Assembly (NCBI GenBank): GCA_029262995.1
Contig: JAJCYH010000005.1
Coordinates: 1 to 64,000, forward strand
Origin: Saprospiraceae bacterium
GTDB taxonomy: Bacteria > Bacteroidota > Bacteroidia > Chitinophagales > Saprospiraceae
Direction: 5' to 3'
DNA: 64,000 bases
This document shows positions 10,462 through 18,885 of the stretch, in pieces (position 1 is the first letter of the stretch; every line of letters starts with the position of its first letter). A model generated the notes under the pieces. It did no database searches. It saw only the letters and a program-made list of their open reading frames with translations, and was not told the origin of the DNA. Both the position numbers and the translations under genes were made by a program.

Positions 10462-13400
10462 ATGTCGTTGAGATCATTTACAATTCCAGCCATTACAGTG
10501 GCTCTTTTATTTTCCTTTAATTTTTTGACTGCAGAAGCTTCTCTTCTGTTAAAAGAAGAAGAGCCTACCATCCATGTGGACTTCAATGAATGTGTATCAT
10601 ATTTTGGTGGATATAATGAAGATTATTCAGAATTTACTGGAGATGTGACTGAGAATCCTGATTGTAGTTTGATGCAATTGGTTGGTGGATTTGTTTATCG
10701 CAGAAATGCTTCAGTGAATACACACTCCTGCACACCTGGTCTGAATTCTCTAGCCATGTGTATTAGCAGCTTGGATTCTTGCAATTATTCTGTAGATAAT
10801 GATAGAGCTCTTAGGTTTGATGTATTAATTTTGCCTGGCTCTACTGGATTTGGCTCAATCAGTGATATTAAGTTTCTATCACAAGCGCCTGAAATGTTCA
10901 GTTTTGTTGATGGAGAAACTGGTGCAAATAATTATCCGACTAAAATGGCACTAAGGGTTTTAGCCAATGGGATAGAAATATATAGAGAGATAGATATAGA
11001 GACATCACGTAACTGGGAAATGAGTGAATTTGATTTCACCAGTGTTCCTGGATTTAGCGTAGCAGTACCAACTCTTTTTTCCTTTGAAATTTTGCCTTAT
11101 TGCCTGATTGGTATAGAATCAGATATGATGGCTTGGGATATTGATGAGTTAACAATAACAGGAGGATGTAATGATCTGAATGGTGGATTGATAAGTGTGA
11201 ATGAGTCTTCTGAGATTTGCTACCCCGATTCTTTGGAAGGGCATAGGTCCTTTAATTTGGAACTGGTAATTGGTTCGACATTTTCGTGGTTTATTCTAAA
11301 TCAGGCTGAAGAGATAGTAGCTTTATCAGATACAAGTGTTTTTGATTTTAATTCTTTGGAAAATGGAATATATACAGTTTATCATATTTCCTATGATACA
11401 ACAGACTTTTCTGGCCTTTTGGTAGGCGGAGTTTTAGAAGATATTGAGGGTTGTTTTGACCTTTCTAATAGTATTGAAATAGCGAACAATAAGCTTGAGG
11501 CAGGAGAATTAAGCAGCGACGAGTCACAAATTGTATTTATATGTAGTGATGATACTCTAAACAACACAATTGTATTAGAGTTAGATGGCTCAACAGCATT
11601 GATAACTGAATACTTGCTGATTGATACAACAGGTAATATTTTAGTAAACACTACTGTAGCCACTATAGATTTGTCTTCATTTTCTGAGGGCAGTTATCAG
11701 ATTATAGCTGTTGGTCATAATGGATCTTTAAGTAATTCCAGTGAAGGAAACTTATTAAGCAGTCTAGAAGGGTGTTTTGTACTTTCCAATGTAATTGATA
11801 TTGAAAAAATGAGGATCAGCGCTGGTCAAATTTCATTTGATGGAGATGACAATTTTCAAGCATGTACAACCAGCAGTTTTGAATTAAACCCAACTTTAGT
11901 TGATTCGATAGGAGGAACTTCACAGTGGGTTTTATATACACCTAACGGAATGATCGTAGGAATTTTTGATGATACACCCATCGACGTAGGAATGATGTTG
12001 TTTCCAACCTTAAGATTGGTTCACCTTAGTTATCTAGGAGTCATCGAAGGGCTTGAATTAGGAGAAAACATAAATGATCTAGAAGGATGTTTTGACGTCT
12101 CAAATGTATTGATAGTTGATATTCCAACTGTAGAAGGCGGAGTTATAAGTTCTAACGGTCTTGACAGTTTAAATATATGTGTAAATGATCCTATAGAATC
12201 AATGGTAGAAGTACTCGTTGAAGGTATTTCTGGAACGGCATCTTCATTAATTGTTACAGATGAAAATGGATTGATACTTGGAATTCCAAGTGACAATATC
12301 ATTGACTTTAGCAATGCTGGAACTGGTATTTGTTTTATATGGAATATCTCTTTTGTAAATGTTTTACAAGGCTTTTCTATTGGACAAAATATTGAGGATA
12401 TAGTTGGTTGCTATGATCTGTCTAACTCGATTGAAGTTAATAGAATAGAGTTACAGTCTGCTGAACTTTCGCTTGAATCTGGTGAAACAGAAATTGAAAT
12501 TTGTTCTGGAGATGGAGAAAGTGACAGTTTGATATTCAACGCAATAAACTTTAGTGGTCCTTTTAGCAGCTTGGTTGTAACAGACAACTTAGGAAATATT
12601 TTGGCTATCCCTGATTCAGATATAATTGATTTTGAGGGTGTACCTGATGGGCTGTGTCTTGTTTACCATCTGGTATCCTCTAATGACAGTATTTTAAGTA
12701 ATCAGCAGAGCAGTTTAGATAGTATAGTAGGATGTTATGAGCTTTCCAATGCAGTTACAGTTATTCGTCACCAAGTAATAGGTGGTAACCTGATGACAAC
12801 AGATAGCCTAACAGAAGTTTCTATTGTCATCGGTGATAATGTATCAGATGAAGTGGATGTGATACTAAATGATGCATTTGGAGAGCAAATGTCATGGATA
12901 ATTACAGACACCCTTGGTGAGATATTGTCTATTCCTAGTGACCCTCCATTTGATTTTTCAACAGCTGGTGCAGGCGTTTGTAATATATACAATATAAGTT
13001 ATTATGGAATACTTACTGGATTGGACGTGGGATCAAATGTCAATGATATTGTTGGTTGTTATGATCTTTCAAACGCTATTATAGTTAACAGAATAATGTT
13101 GAATGGTGGGGTTATCGTTTTTGATAACGGTAGAGACACAGTTGCCATTTGTACAGGAGACCCTATAGTTGACAGTCTGAATGTAACATTGACTGATTTT
13201 GAAGGTCCATTATCTTCCTGGATAATTACAGATATAAGTGGTCTTATTCTTGAATTGCCATTAGGTCCTCCGTTTGCATTTGAAAATGCACCAACCGGAA
13301 TATGTCAGATTTGGCACATCAGTTATACAATGGACCTTGATGGCCTTGAAGTTGGACTTAATGTCAACGAACTGGATGGGGCTTTTAATTTATCTAATGT

Positions 13401-16400
13401 ACTGGTAGTTGAAAGAACACATGTTGATGGAGGAGACATTATGACAGTTGATTCTATGACCGTGGTTTCGCTTTGTACAGGAGATGGTATAGCTGATATA
13501 GTAAGTGCTTTTGTTGAAGGAGAAGAAGGAGATAGTTCGGCTTGGATTATTACGGATGCAAGTGATGTTATCCTTGCCTTACCAGATTCACTTACAGTTG
13601 ATTTTGATGGTGCAGGTGCAGGAACTTGTTTTATTTATCATATTTCATTTTACGATAATCTTACGGCTTTAGCTATAGATAGTTCATTGAATGATTTGAT
13701 TGGTTGTTATGATTTATCGAATGCCATAACCGTAATAAGAACGGAAGTTGATGGAGGTATCATATCAGAAGCATCTGGTTTGGATACGATAAATATTGTT
13801 GTCGGCGAAGGCGTAGTTGACTCATTAGAATTTTCTGTGATTGATGCAATGGGAGATTCTTTAGTGTGGGTTATTACAGATACAACAGGTATGATATTAA
13901 GTATTAGTTCTAATCCTCCAGTGGATTTTGAATCTGCAGGTGAAGGCGTATGTTTGGTATACCATTTAAGTTATGGTGCTGGTATACAAGGCTTAATTAT
14001 TGGGAATAATCTAAATGATATTATAGGTTGTTTTGATCTTTCAAATTCAATAACCGTAATAAGAACGGAAGTTAATGGAGGTGTAATTTCGAGTATTGAT
14101 TCCTTGGTACTCATCGATCTTTGTATTCAGGAAATGAATTCTGATTCTATTGATGTGCTTTTAAGCGATGAAAAGGGGACTGAATTTCAATGGATAATTA
14201 CAGATGATTTGGGTGTAATTCTGGCTTTGCCAGTTTCTCCGCCGTTTGATTTTTCGAATGCTCCAACAGGCACTTGTCAAATTTGGCATTTGGCTTCATT
14301 GGGCAGTGTTACTGGGTTGACAGTAGGAGAAAATATTGCAGATATTACAGGAGTTTTTGATTTTTCTAATCCAATTGAGGTTGTTAGACAACAAGTAGAT
14401 GGAGGGCTGATAAGTCATAACTCTGGTTTGGATACTTTGATGTTGATAACGAATGACGGTATTGCTGATTCAATTGATTTAAATTTGGTAAATGCTGTTG
14501 GTGATTCAACGCATTGGATAATTACAGATGAACAAGGATTAATTTTGGCATTACCTGATACCTTGCCTTTTGACTTTGAAGGCTCTGCTCCAGGTATTTG
14601 TTTGATGTGGAATATTTCTTTTAATGAGATACCTGAAGGCTTAGAAATTGATTCTTCGGCATTTGATCTAGGAGGCTGTTTTGATCTTTCCAATGCAATT
14701 ACAATTATAAGAGATCACATACAAGGTGGTAATCTTATTACGGTTGATAGTCTTACATCTGTAAATGTTTGTTTGAATGACACAATTATAGATTTGATCG
14801 ATGTCATTGTAACGGATACATTTGGGATGAACTTTGGATGGGTGATTACGGACACTTCGGGCTTAATACTTAATTTGCCGATATCCCCTCCATTTGATTT
14901 TTCTAGTGCTGGAGCAGGAATATGTCAGATATGGCATTTGAGTTATCAAGATAACCTTATGGGTCTTGTAGAAGGAAATAATGTTAGTGATCTAACGGGT
15001 TCTTTTGATTTTTCTAATCCAGTTGAAGTAATAAGAGATTCACTAGCGGGAGGAAGTTTAACTTTACTTGATGGTACAACCAGTGATACCATAATATTAG
15101 GTGATGGAAATATTGACACTTTAGAAGTTGTATTGAATATTGCTATAGGAGCAAACTTAATTTATGTGGTTACAGATACTCTAGGGGAAATTCTTGACAC
15201 TACATCAAACAGTAGTTTTACTTTCGAAAATGCAGGTGGAGGCGTCTGTCAGATATGGAATCTTAGCTACGCAAATGGGTTATCTGGTCTAGAGATTTCT
15301 AACAATGTATCTCAACTTAGTGGTTGTTTTGATCTTTCCAATCCAGTAACGATAACGAGAGTAGGTCTTATGGGAGGTGAATTGATGACTACAGATAGCT
15401 TGGTCTTTATTCAGATATGCGTTAGTGATACGTTATCAGATGTATTTGATGTTATACTTTCAGATACAGTTGGACCGATTCAGTCATGGGTTGTTACTGA
15501 TGCTATGGGAATTATTTTGGATCTTCCAGCAAATCAACCATTTGACTTGAGTTCTCAATCAGTGGCGACATGTTTCTTATGGAACCTAAGTCATGATATG
15601 GATATTACGGGTTTAGAAATTGGTCTAAGTGTAGATTCATTGGTTGGCAACTATAATTTTTCTAACGCGATTACAGTAGATAAAGCTTCAAGTACTGCCA
15701 GTTCCATAATGACAACAGACAGCTTGACGGCTGTTTCAATTACAGTTGGTGAAGGCATTGTTGATCTAATCAATGCAATTTCAGCTGGAGGAGATGGAGA
15801 TAGTTCGGTTTGGGTAATTACTGACCCTATGGGAACAATCCTTGTGGTTCAGGATACTGCTTCATTTGATTTTGAATCATCTGGAGGAGGCACATGTTTG
15901 ATTTGGGAAATTAATTTTGAGTTTGGAATATCAGGATTATCTGTTGGAGCTAATATAAATAACTTACAAGGATGTTTTTCTATTTCAAATTCTATAGAAG
16001 TAATGAGAATTCCTACCCCATTAAATGGAGGTGTTTTAACGACCTCTGATTTTTTGATTGCTATTGAAATTTGCGTCGGCAATGGATTAACTGAGGAAAT
16101 AGATGTTGTATTAAATTTCAATCAAGGACCTAATTTTCAATGGGTAATAACGGATACGACGGGATTGATATTAGGCTTACCTGCTGCACCACCTTTTGAT
16201 TTAAGTTTGGCAGGTCCAGGACTATGTCAGATTTGGAATTTGAGTTATGCCAATGGTCTTACGGGATTAAGTGTTGGATTAAACATCAATGGATTGCAAG
16301 GTTTCTTTGATTTTTCAAATGCAATAAGCGTGACACGAAATGCAGCTGATGGTGGAGAAATAGAAACTACTGGCGGAATGACAGAAATTACAATTCCAGT

Positions 16401-18885
16401 TGGAGAAGGGGTAATTGATTCAGTAGATATCGTTCTTACCGGTGAAGAAGGTGATACACAAATGTGGATTGTCACAGATACTAATAATGTAATCATCAAT
16501 TTGAATGCAACATCACCATTTACATTTGAAAATAATGGAGGAGGCGCATGCCTTATTTGGAATTTAGCATCTACAGGTGCTGTTAGTGGATTAATGCTTG
16601 GAAATAATTTGTCAGAATTGGAAGGCTGTTTTGATCTTTCCAATGCAGTTACAGTAACTAAAGACGGTCCAAATGGTGGAATATTAAGTGATATCAACGG
16701 AAATAGTTCTGTTGAATTCTGTAATACAGATTCATTTAGTGACAGTCTTGAGGTAGTTCTAACAGGAACGATAGGCTCCATGAATCAGTGGATAATCGTC
16801 GATTCTTCAGGCGTAATTATAAGCCTTCCTGTGCAGGATCCATTTGATCTATCAGCATTGTCATTAGGAACATGTTACTTGTATAATATGGCTTTTGATT
16901 CTGCACCAACAGGAATTTCCTTAGGAGATACACTTGCAAATGCCATGGGAACTTATCATGTTTCCAATGCTCTTGAAATCTTTAAAGTAGAGACTTTTGG
17001 TGGTTCATTGACATTTGAAGATGGTTCATTGATAGATACGATAATGGTTGGTGAAGGAATAATTGATACTGTTGAAGTTACTCTTACTGGACAAGTAGGA
17101 GAAATTAATCAGTGGGTTGTTACTGACACCTTTGGGGTAATATTGGATTTACCAATTTCTGATCCATTTGATTTTGAATCTGCTGGTGGAGGCGTTTGCT
17201 TGATTTGGAATTTAGCATTTCAAGTAGGTATTCAAGGCTTATCAATTGGAAATAATGTAAATCAATTGGATGGTTGTTATTCGTTTTCAAATTCTATTAT
17301 GATTGTAAGAGATGGTCTTAATGGAGGATTACTTCGATTTGATGATATGACGACTGTTAGAGAAACTTGTTTTGGTGATGGTCTTCCAGACTTAACTACG
17401 TATGTCGTTTCTGGAGCTCAGGGCTTAAATGATGAATTTTTCTTTGCACGTACAAACGGTCAATTACAATTCTTGAATGCGCCTAACCCATTTGACTTTG
17501 AATTGATTCCTGCTAATATTGATACTTTCGTAATCTATAATATTGCCTATGACACCATACCAGGTGGTTATAATCAAGGTAACTTTATTTCTAATTTAAC
17601 GGGTAATTTCTCCCTTTCAAATCCAATCTTTTTAGTCAGAGATATTCAGAGAGGTGGAAGCATACAAGATACCATGGGTTTTACATCTTCAACGATTATT
17701 GTAGCTGATGGCGTAGTGGATACCTTAACATTGGAAGTGGCTGGAACATTTGCTGATTCAATGGCATGGGTGATGACCAATGATAATGATACGATAATTG
17801 CAATTCAAAATTCAAATGAATTCATTTTTGATAGTTTAGGAACTTCAGAATGTAGAATTTATCATATTGGATTTAATCCTGACATAATTGATGGTCTTGA
17901 AATAGGAGAGTCTATTGATAGCATTACAGGCTGTTATGGAATATCCAATGTTTATATATTGACTAAAAAAGCATTAAATGGGGGTGTTCTTTCAACTACT
18001 ACAGGTGAGACTTCTATTGAAATTTGTTCAGGAGACAACAATGTAGATATTGTTAACTTGATTACAGAAGGTGAAATAGGTTCATCGTTTGTTTTCATTG
18101 TTGCCAATTTGAATGGTATTATTTTGTTGAACCAAGTTTCTTCTCAATTAGACTTGACTGGTGTGCAACCTGGAATGTGTCAAATATTTAGCATTAGTCA
18201 TGATGGTTCCTTAGGTGGAGTTGCTAATGGCGTAAATATTTCAAGTTTGACTGGTTGTTTCTTACTTTCCACACCAGTAGATGTTGTAAAGAATGCTGTA
18301 TTTGGTGGAAACTTGACATTACAGTCAGGAGGAACAGTTGAAGATGTATGCGTAGGAGATGCGATAGAGGATAATGTGATTTGGCAAACTACTAGTATGT
18401 CAGGAGAATACTTTTATGCTATTACTGACACCTTTAATGTTATCGATACAATAATTAGCAATGGTGTATTTGATTTTAACGATTCAGATGTAGGTGTTTG
18501 CAGAATTTGGGGTATATCATATGTAGGTACATTAACAGCAGAAGAAGGTGACACAGTAGGTGTAGATGTATTGGCTGAAGATTGTTTTGATATATCAAAC
18601 AATTTTATTCAAATCAATAAAAATGACTGTACAATACCAGCAGCTTTAGCTTATAAGGTTTACCCTAATCCAGTTATTGACAGATTGCGACTTGATGTAA
18701 TTAATGTGCCAAACAGTAATACGTATTGTCAGATATTTGACTCTAGTGGAAAAGTGCTTCATCAACAGAATATTGGACTTGGAGAAGTAGACATTGATAT
18801 GAGTTCGCTTATGGCTGGTGTCTATTATATACGAGTAAAATCTGGTGGTTACATCAAAACAGATAAGTTTATTGTTCTGAAATAA
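10462..18885 (+). CDS. Giant T9SS-secreted repeat protein (about 23 tandem ~105-110 aa modules)
   Basis: 2807 aa; modules of form GG...ICVGDG..D...V.L....G...WIITDT.G.IL.LP..PPFDF..AG.G.C.IW.LSY...GL..G.N...L.GCFDLSN.I.V.R; C-terminal T9SS domain VYPNPVIDRLRLDV...GVYYIRVKSGGYIKTDKFIVLK. Confidence 0.95.
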   Translation: MSLRSFTIPAITVALLFSFNFLTAEASLLLKEEEPTIHVDFNECVSYFGGYNEDYSEFTGDVTENPDCSLMQLVGGFVYRRNASVNTHSCTPGLNSLAMCISSLDSCNYSVDNDRALRFDVLILPGSTGFGSISDIKFLSQAPEMFSFVDGETGANNYPTKMALRVLANGIEIYREIDIETSRNWEMSEFDFTSVPGFSVAVPTLFSFEILPYCLIGIESDMMAWDIDELTITGGCNDLNGGLISVNESSEICYPDSLEGHRSFNLELVIGSTFSWFILNQAEEIVALSDTSVFDFNSLENGIYTVYHISYDTTDFSGLLVGGVLEDIEGCFDLSNSIEIANNKLEAGELSSDESQIVFICSDDTLNNTIVLELDGSTALITEYLLIDTTGNILVNTTVATIDLSSFSEGSYQIIAVGHNGSLSNSSEGNLLSSLEGCFVLSNVIDIEKMRISAGQISFDGDDNFQACTTSSFELNPTLVDSIGGTSQWVLYTPNGMIVGIFDDTPIDVGMMLFPTLRLVHLSYLGVIEGLELGENINDLEGCFDVSNVLIVDIPTVEGGVISSNGLDSLNICVNDPIESMVEVLVEGISGTASSLIVTDENGLILGIPSDNIIDFSNAGTGICFIWNISFVNVLQGFSIGQNIEDIVGCYDLSNSIEVNRIELQSAELSLESGETEIEICSGDGESDSLIFNAINFSGPFSSLVVTDNLGNILAIPDSDIIDFEGVPDGLCLVYHLVSSNDSILSNQQSSLDSIVGCYELSNAVTVIRHQVIGGNLMTTDSLTEVSIVIGDNVSDEVDVILNDAFGEQMSWIITDTLGEILSIPSDPPFDFSTAGAGVCNIYNISYYGILTGLDVGSNVNDIVGCYDLSNAIIVNRIMLNGGVIVFDNGRDTVAICTGDPIVDSLNVTLTDFEGPLSSWIITDISGLILELPLGPPFAFENAPTGICQIWHISYTMDLDGLEVGLNVNELDGAFNLSNVLVVERTHVDGGDIMTVDSMTVVSLCTGDGIADIVSAFVEGEEGDSSAWIITDASDVILALPDSLTVDFDGAGAGTCFIYHISFYDNLTALAIDSSLNDLIGCYDLSNAITVIRTEVDGGIISEASGLDTINIVVGEGVVDSLEFSVIDAMGDSLVWVITDTTGMILSISSNPPVDFESAGEGVCLVYHLSYGAGIQGLIIGNNLNDIIGCFDLSNSITVIRTEVNGGVISSIDSLVLIDLCIQEMNSDSIDVLLSDEKGTEFQWIITDDLGVILALPVSPPFDFSNAPTGTCQIWHLASLGSVTGLTVGENIADITGVFDFSNPIEVVRQQVDGGLISHNSGLDTLMLITNDGIADSIDLNLVNAVGDSTHWIITDEQGLILALPDTLPFDFEGSAPGICLMWNISFNEIPEGLEIDSSAFDLGGCFDLSNAITIIRDHIQGGNLITVDSLTSVNVCLNDTIIDLIDVIVTDTFGMNFGWVITDTSGLILNLPISPPFDFSSAGAGICQIWHLSYQDNLMGLVEGNNVSDLTGSFDFSNPVEVIRDSLAGGSLTLLDGTTSDTIILGDGNIDTLEVVLNIAIGANLIYVVTDTLGEILDTTSNSSFTFENAGGGVCQIWNLSYANGLSGLEISNNVSQLSGCFDLSNPVTITRVGLMGGELMTTDSLVFIQICVSDTLSDVFDVILSDTVGPIQSWVVTDAMGIILDLPANQPFDLSSQSVATCFLWNLSHDMDITGLEIGLSVDSLVGNYNFSNAITVDKASSTASSIMTTDSLTAVSITVGEGIVDLINAISAGGDGDSSVWVITDPMGTILVVQDTASFDFESSGGGTCLIWEINFEFGISGLSVGANINNLQGCFSISNSIEVMRIPTPLNGGVLTTSDFLIAIEICVGNGLTEEIDVVLNFNQGPNFQWVITDTTGLILGLPAAPPFDLSLAGPGLCQIWNLSYANGLTGLSVGLNINGLQGFFDFSNAISVTRNAADGGEIETTGGMTEITIPVGEGVIDSVDIVLTGEEGDTQMWIVTDTNNVIINLNATSPFTFENNGGGACLIWNLASTGAVSGLMLGNNLSELEGCFDLSNAVTVTKDGPNGGILSDINGNSSVEFCNTDSFSDSLEVVLTGTIGSMNQWIIVDSSGVIISLPVQDPFDLSALSLGTCYLYNMAFDSAPTGISLGDTLANAMGTYHVSNALEIFKVETFGGSLTFEDGSLIDTIMVGEGIIDTVEVTLTGQVGEINQWVVTDTFGVILDLPISDPFDFESAGGGVCLIWNLAFQVGIQGLSIGNNVNQLDGCYSFSNSIMIVRDGLNGGLLRFDDMTTVRETCFGDGLPDLTTYVVSGAQGLNDEFFFARTNGQLQFLNAPNPFDFELIPANIDTFVIYNIAYDTIPGGYNQGNFISNLTGNFSLSNPIFLVRDIQRGGSIQDTMGFTSSTIIVADGVVDTLTLEVAGTFADSMAWVMTNDNDTIIAIQNSNEFIFDSLGTSECRIYHIGFNPDIIDGLEIGESIDSITGCYGISNVYILTKKALNGGVLSTTTGETSIEICSGDNNVDIVNLITEGEIGSSFVFIVANLNGIILLNQVSSQLDLTGVQPGMCQIFSISHDGSLGGVANGVNISSLTGCFLLSTPVDVVKNAVFGGNLTLQSGGTVEDVCVGDAIEDNVIWQTTSMSGEYFYAITDTFNVIDTIISNGVFDFNDSDVGVCRIWGISYVGTLTAEEGDTVGVDVLAEDCFDISNNFIQINKNDCTIPAALAYKVYPNPVIDRLRLDVINVPNSNTYCQIFDSSGKVLHQQNIGLGEVDIDMSSLMAGVYYIRVKSGGYIKTDKFIVLK
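11160..18630 (+). repeat. Tandem protein-coding repeat array (~320-bp units)
   Basis: Repeating motifs 'ITD..G.IL', 'C.IW.LSY', 'GCFDLSN' at regular spacing in the translation. Confidence 0.9.

Follow-up and report, generated by a model that had tools for sequence, protein, structure and literature searches.

Which of its cysteines are partners is the question raised by a giant repeat protein encoded in the 64,000-nucleotide window analysed here (the whole stretch of DNA under study, from a Saprospiraceae bacterium). The cysteines of its tandem modules are kept or lost in step across module junctions, and the original prediction was that a Cys close to the end of one module is joined by a disulfide to a Cys close to the start of the next, at every second junction. 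The reading that we consider highly probable differs in register: the protein would be a T9SS-exported rod of 23 modules in which the early Cys of each module pairs with the late Cys of the module that follows, the ends of the array are capped, and alternate joints in mid-array are left unstapled.

Gene, Protein, and Export

The open reading frame encodes 23 Ig-like modules of ~108 aa each, preceded by an N-terminal region and followed by a C-terminal tail (Table 1). The N-terminus is hydrophobic as judged by eye (a putative signal peptide), and ends resembling that of the Cys-rich domain downstream of it, AWDIDELTITGGC, were found ahead of many homologous arrays. The tail is of the Por_Secre_tail kind, with both PF18962 and TIGR04183 scoring over their cutoffs. 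Searches of Pfam and NCBIfam returned no family that matches the ~108-aa module, and a sequence search of the PDB with the module profile returned no relative. The genes nearby that we examined (a Na/H exchanger, DUF2207, an AI-2E family transporter, DUF4197, an M4 peptidase with a T9SS tail, and a glutaminase) gave no added functional clue. The same genome encodes a second giant protein with modules of this family (L090, G000:C23:36000-47500), a 2066-aa frame with 14 modules and two copies of the Cys-rich domain with an AWDxD...C end.

Table 1. Features of the repeat protein and its predicted stapled blocks (M, module; C followed by a number of three or four digits, cysteine residue; positions are those of the window).
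Feature	Position	Strand	Evidence
ORF, 2807 aa: N-terminal region, 23 Ig-like modules, T9SS type A sorting tail	10462..18885	+	
N-terminal region, residues 1-237: putative signal peptide, then Cys-rich domain with end AWDIDELTITGGC	10462..11172	+	
N-terminal cap Cys C236, predicted partner C331 (C3 of M1)	codon 11167..11169	+	Cys counts at array starts
M1-M6, predicted continuous stapled block: C253-C438, C361-C543, C468-C650, C573-C758, C681-C866	11173..13095	+	
M7-M9, predicted stapled block: C897-C1082, C1005-C1190; joint 6/7 unstapled	13096..14067	+	
M10-M11, predicted stapled pair, C1221-C1406; joint 9/10 unstapled	14068..14715	+	
M12-M13, predicted stapled pair, C1437-C1622; joint 11/12 unstapled	14716..15363	+	
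M14-M15, predicted stapled pair, C1653-C1838; joint 13/14 unstapled	15364..16011	+	
M16-M17, predicted stapled pair, C1871-C2056; joint 15/16 unstapled, with 2-residue insertion	16012..16665	+	
M18-M19, predicted stapled pair, C2087-C2272; joint 17/18 unstapled	16666..17313	+	
M20-M21, predicted stapled pair, C2303-C2491; joint 19/20 unstapled	17314..17970	+	
M22-M23, predicted stapled, C2522-C2708; joint 21/22 the sole exception (partnerless C2599)	17971..18621	+	
C-terminal cap Cys C2723, predicted partner C2630 (C1 of M23)	codon 18628..18630	+	Cys counts at array ends
T9SS type A C-terminal sorting domain, residues 2733-2805	18658..18876	+	PF18962 E=5.6e-12, TIGR04183 E=3e-12

Cysteine Columns and Module States

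Cys is frequent in three columns of the module alignment only: column 19 (C1, in ICVGD), column 70 (C2, in GxCxIW), and column 96 (C3, in GCFDLSN). When the presence (1) or absence (0) of C1, C2, and C3 is written in that order, modules 1-3 are in state 101, modules 4-5 in 111, module 6 in 011, module 7 in 110, and module 8 in 111; modules 9-19 then alternate strictly between 011 and 110, and are followed by 100 in module 20, 011 in module 21, and 111 in modules 22-23. This table bears out the both-or-neither alternation of C3 in one module and C1 in the next that had been described for the 13 junctions from 9/10 to 21/22, which is unbroken, and junctions 5/6, 7/8, and 8/9, which had been given as its exceptions, are the only mismatches for this pair.

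Register of the Cysteine Pairing

A perfectly alternating array leaves the two inter-module pairings, C1(n)-C3(n+1) and C3(n)-C1(n+1), indistinguishable, and it is therefore the exceptions that decide. We gathered 80 frames from relatives, with a total of 855 modules, nearly all of one family, and phi values were computed on the first 612 modules. C1(n) and C3(n+1) covary with a phi of 0.91 (424/8/5/76), vs. 0.72 (409/19/23/69) for C3(n) and C1(n+1), the pair chosen originally, with the caveat that many junctions are related by descent and the counts therefore overstate independence. Within one module, the phi of C1 and C3 is −0.18, and none of 605 modules lacks both. C2, a third conserved Cys that the original prediction left out, shows no positive covariation and varies independently (phi −0.12 vs. 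C1 and 0.02 vs. C3), by which it was ruled out as the partner of either.

The same preference is seen closer to home. Agreement in the protein itself extends to 19 of 22 junctions for C3(n)-C1(n+1) (shuffle p ~0.002) and to 21 of 22 for C1(n)-C3(n+1) (p ~3.5e-5), with which the exceptions 5/6, 7/8, and 8/9 disappear. Across the twelve arrays of its own gene family, C1(n)-C3(n+1) holds at 238/243 junctions, the five failures being one orthologous junction, 21/22, vs. 214/244 for C3(n)-C1(n+1), with 30 mismatches. At junction 21/22, C2599 (C3 of module 22, codon 18256-18258) is the only C1 or C3 Cys of this protein without a predicted partner; the mismatch is common to five orthologues and absent from the others.

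Once linker Cys are included, the number of Cys is even at 738/745 junctions, and the seven unbalanced ones represent two events. The first is the orthologous junction 21/22, seen in five genomes; the second affects L087 and L105, whose module 4 carries a substitute Cys in column 78, close to C3 at the N-terminal pole by the contact map. Compensation occurs in other lineages: thirteen junctions without C3(n+1) have one linker Cys instead (e.g., in L059), and one linker Cys is likewise present at a junction without C1(n) in L116. Linkers with two Cys (e.g., NCGEPVC), besides C1 and C3, occur at 105 junctions (L061, L100, L101, L106, L107, L111, L114, and L116).

Judged by covariation across the sampled arrays, the partner of C1(n) is C3(n+1) and not C3(n−1), and we infer that the two would form a disulfide. 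With a conserved Cys pair across its junctions and capped chain ends, the array has the features of an inter-domain disulfide array, the disulfides themselves being predicted. The predicted architecture is a cap, the blocks M1-M6 and M7-M9, six pairs from M10 to M21, the pair M22-M23, and a second cap, i.e., 14 inter-module disulfides plus two at the caps. Thus, of the proposed inter-module disulfides at every second junction, the bond type (as inferred) and the alternation stand, but the pairing was off by one register and its phase inverted: the "both" junctions 9/10, 11/12, 13/14, 15/16, 17/18, and 19/20, taken as bridged, would be unstapled, and the "neither" junctions 10/11, 12/13, 14/15, 16/17, 18/19, and 20/21, taken as unbridged, would be stapled.

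Fold and Position of the Cysteines

An isolated module is predicted by AlphaFold to be all-beta (pLDDT 96, pTM 0.86), a self-contained sandwich of seven or eight strands resembling Ig and FN3 domains. It has no significant match among catalogued Ig, FN3, PKD, BIg, or cadherin families and structures (no Pfam match; weak Ig/FN3-like matches in Foldseek, the best in the PDB at E=0.008, TM 0.45-0.50). Five modules in a row retrieve cadherins and other beta-sandwich rods in Foldseek, with cadherins ranking first and GhpA of Aureispira at rank 16.

Mean-field co-evolution on 845 modules recovered the strand ladders F-G (76-98, 75-99, and 70-107), B-E (25-61, 23-63, and 30-58), and C-F (40-74 and 38-78), together with the intramodule contacts 19-61, 20-63, 17-106, and 65-107, coupling of residue 107 to 65-70, and the contacts 2-96, 3-98, and 76-98. 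The contacts 19-61, 20-63, and 17-106 and those of residue 107 with 65-70 place C1 at the C-terminal pole, where the chain exits, while 2-96 and the contacts of residue 98 with 3 and 76 place C3 at the N-terminal pole, where the chain enters; C1(n) would therefore face C3(n+1). The two sites of the bridge proposed originally fall, on the same map, at opposite ends of a two-module rod.

The strongest inter-module coupling is n:19-(n+1):96 (17.1 sd), and that of n:19 with (n+1):2 is also high. With the Cys columns removed, the inter-module couplings held no significant docking signal, so that the inter-module contact rests on Cys covariation and the intramodule poles. Paths through the contact graph are 31-42 for C1(n)-C3(n+1) vs. 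74-76 for C3(n)-C1(n+1), or 69 vs. 84 with the strongest contacts only, and coarse contact-based 3D models give 19 ± 5 vs. 28 ± 5 angstrom, a weak separation too loose to decide alone. Further, AlphaFold predicts residues 19-20 and 108-109 as strand in modules with a successor, but not when a module stands alone or comes last, which fits a position of C1 at the exit joint. C1 and C3, at opposite poles and without within-module covariation, lack the features of an intradomain cross-link. Some modules of L104, L109, L092, L090, and L055 carry an extra Cys pair in columns 40 and 76, which co-evolution predicts to touch and which is likely an added intramodule disulfide.

End Caps and Linker Insertions

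A C1(n)-C3(n+1) pairing would leave the first C3 and the last C1 of an array in need of partners outside it. A Cys is present within 9 aa of the first module in 56/65 arrays (control, 6/65), and within 9 aa after the last module in 64/82 (control, 16/82). The arrays of L061 and L115 come directly after the signal peptide, with no cap Cys, and their module 1 is without C3; the last module of L115 is also without C1. Counting against the rule, L101 and L106 have a cap Cys though module 1 is without C3, and in L059 and L105 module 1 carries C3 but no cap precedes it. Joints differ as well in what they accommodate: no insertion is present at 146/159 bridged joints vs. 37/79 unbridged ones (p=4e-14).

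The expected outcome was fixed before arrays from another genus and from other families were retrieved (L123-L130). All 28 junctions of these arrays were balanced, as predicted, and in L123 and L124 the first module is an uncapped 110 module, i.e., without C3, and the last C1 is capped. The single module of L126 has neither C1 nor C3. The array end of L127, and a Cys far ahead of the array in L125, fit less clearly.

Alternative Pairings

The disulfide C3(n)-C1(n+1), which would put the bridges at the "both" junctions (9/10, 11/12, etc.), accounts for the 19 agreeing junctions in this protein and has a strong secondary coupling (12.0 sd). However, in an alternating array this correlation is an automatic by-product of the shifted pair, and in the same gene family mismatches are seen at 30/244 junctions, vs. 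5/243 (one event) for C1(n)-C3(n+1). The original prediction had named independent Cys loss in homologues as evidence against its bridge, and such loss is what these mismatches and the first modules lacking only C3 in L115, L123, and L124 represent. Moreover, the two Cys lie at opposite poles, the joints that they would bridge are those that accept linker insertions, and uncapped arrays begin with a module without C3, not without C1. We rejected this pairing on the contact map and the junction mismatches, and regard it as the least probable of the readings considered. Hardly less improbable is a C1-C3 disulfide inside each module, with the orphan Cys of 011 and 110 modules pairing across the joint. 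Most homologous modules are indeed of the type 1x1, and single modules with both Cys exist; yet such a bond predicts co-loss of the two, which none of the 605 modules displays, and the contact map sets them at opposite poles. Where caps are absent, first modules lose only C3 and a last module only C1 (L115, L123, and L124), and it was the contact map and this end-cap pattern on which the intramodule bond was rejected.

It is also conceivable, though very unlikely, that there are no disulfides and that the alternation is the footprint of duplications of a two-module unit, with Cys kept by descent. The higher identity at even lags, the sister modules two apart in one relative, and the array sizes of the orthologues, all described below, agree with this. 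Descent accounts for the alternation, but not for the fact that unrelated arrays from many genera are balanced, and it leaves the end caps and the compensating Cys in linkers and column 78 unexplained; besides, the Cys pairs were strictly kept while the modules diverged to ~40% identity.

Origin of the Alternation

With the Cys columns omitted from the tree, modules group by their 011 or 110 state (11 and 10 changes vs. 40 and 37 in shuffles), in agreement with the separate descent that had been anticipated for odd and even modules; a tree from the modules of this protein alone held too little signal. Modules an even number of positions apart are more alike than those at odd lags (40.4% identity at lag 2 vs. 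35.9% at lag 1), in one relative M11/M13 and M12/M14 are sister pairs two modules apart, and most orthologous arrays have 21, 23, 25, or 27 modules. Twelve alternating arrays were found, all of them (12/12) in the same genus group. Taken together, the clustering by state, the sister pairs, the even-lag identity, and the array sizes point to growth of the pattern through gains and losses of module pairs; consequently, the 13 alternating junctions are not independent events. The two-module higher-order unit of the original prediction is thus upheld, at ~216 aa, and looks inherited through module-pair duplication.

Relatives contain further unusual arrays. In L059 (G054:C25), frame residues 913-2063 form another alternating array, in which the repeating unit consists of 110 and 111 modules and a 16-aa linker, VDSGAVCGDTMVVTPL, whose one Cys apparently replaces the absent C3. 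L085, L081, L079, and L071 have a 011 module with C3 plus an extra column-78 Cys, for which no partner was found. The array of L079 is interrupted after a 011 module, at a would-be unstapled joint, by an unrelated three-Cys domain (159-aa gap).

Comparison with Known Systems

Joints in SiiE and in the cadherins are set by bound calcium and not by disulfides. Both SiiE (PMC5466336) and the cadherins are long tandem beta-sandwich rods, as is the predicted Saprospiraceae protein, with which they share ~10% sequence identity. Covalent cross-links stiffen giant surface proteins with numerous Ig-like domains, such as an adhesin of Mobiluncus mulieris (PMC10619420) and the FimP/FimA and Spy0128-type pilins. 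In these cross-linked adhesins, isopeptide, ester, and disulfide bonds are found within the individual domains and the inter-domain linker is described as flexible, whereas the bond proposed here would join neighbors. In our literature search on disulfides between the domains of bacterial Ig arrays, the Mobiluncus adhesin was the nearest system.

Grappling hook protein A (GhpA) of Aureispira is a T9SS substrate. It is likewise a giant Saprospiraceae protein, and a fragment of it matches in structure (PDB 9flx, E=6e-8, TM 0.37 on the target). The module profile does not match the GhpA sequence at E<=10, and the likeness is at the fold level only. SprB-type and other Bacteroidota Ig-like repeats are also exported by the T9SS, and carry Cys ahead of an early strand and of the last strand. 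They are set apart from the Saprospiraceae module, since no Pfam model matches the latter.

A Proposed Rod with Stapled and Unstapled Joints

We hypothesize that the T9SS exports the protein as a rod of 23 Ig-like modules, either secreted or at the surface, in which the joint would bring C1(n) and C3(n+1) together in a single inter-module disulfide, while the first C3 and the last C1 would be capped by a Cys just outside the array. Nearly all joints would be stapled in most relatives, and in this protein and its same-genus orthologues the mid-array loss of both Cys at alternate joints would leave stapled two-module pieces, a pattern that may have spread via module-pair duplication. Its export by the T9SS and its predicted shape, a long rod of modules, would suit a surface stalk or adhesin, and the insertions at unstapled joints fit greater mobility there. 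We give roughly even odds both to greater stiffness at stapled joints, with more mobility at unstapled ones, and to a role of the protein as an adhesive or spacing stalk.

For the reading of such arrays, a caution follows: covariation in an alternating array can indicate the wrong neighbor. More tentatively, and at less than even odds, the module may define a domain family not described before, shared by Saprospiraceae and a few relatives, whose rods would be self-capping ladders of disulfides between domains; one genus would have dropped alternate rungs, so that the period of stiff two-module segments and hinges would be set by sequence alone, and the rule may extend to other Bacteroidota Ig-like repeats with ICxGD...GC. 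From sequence alone, a simple rule, that C1 of a module goes with C3 of the next and that the ends are capped, predicts ~16 disulfides for this protein and, across its relatives, hundreds. Arrays with staples at all joints or at alternate joints would thereby form a natural series of rods, whose comparison could test joint stiffness in the mechanics of surface proteins.
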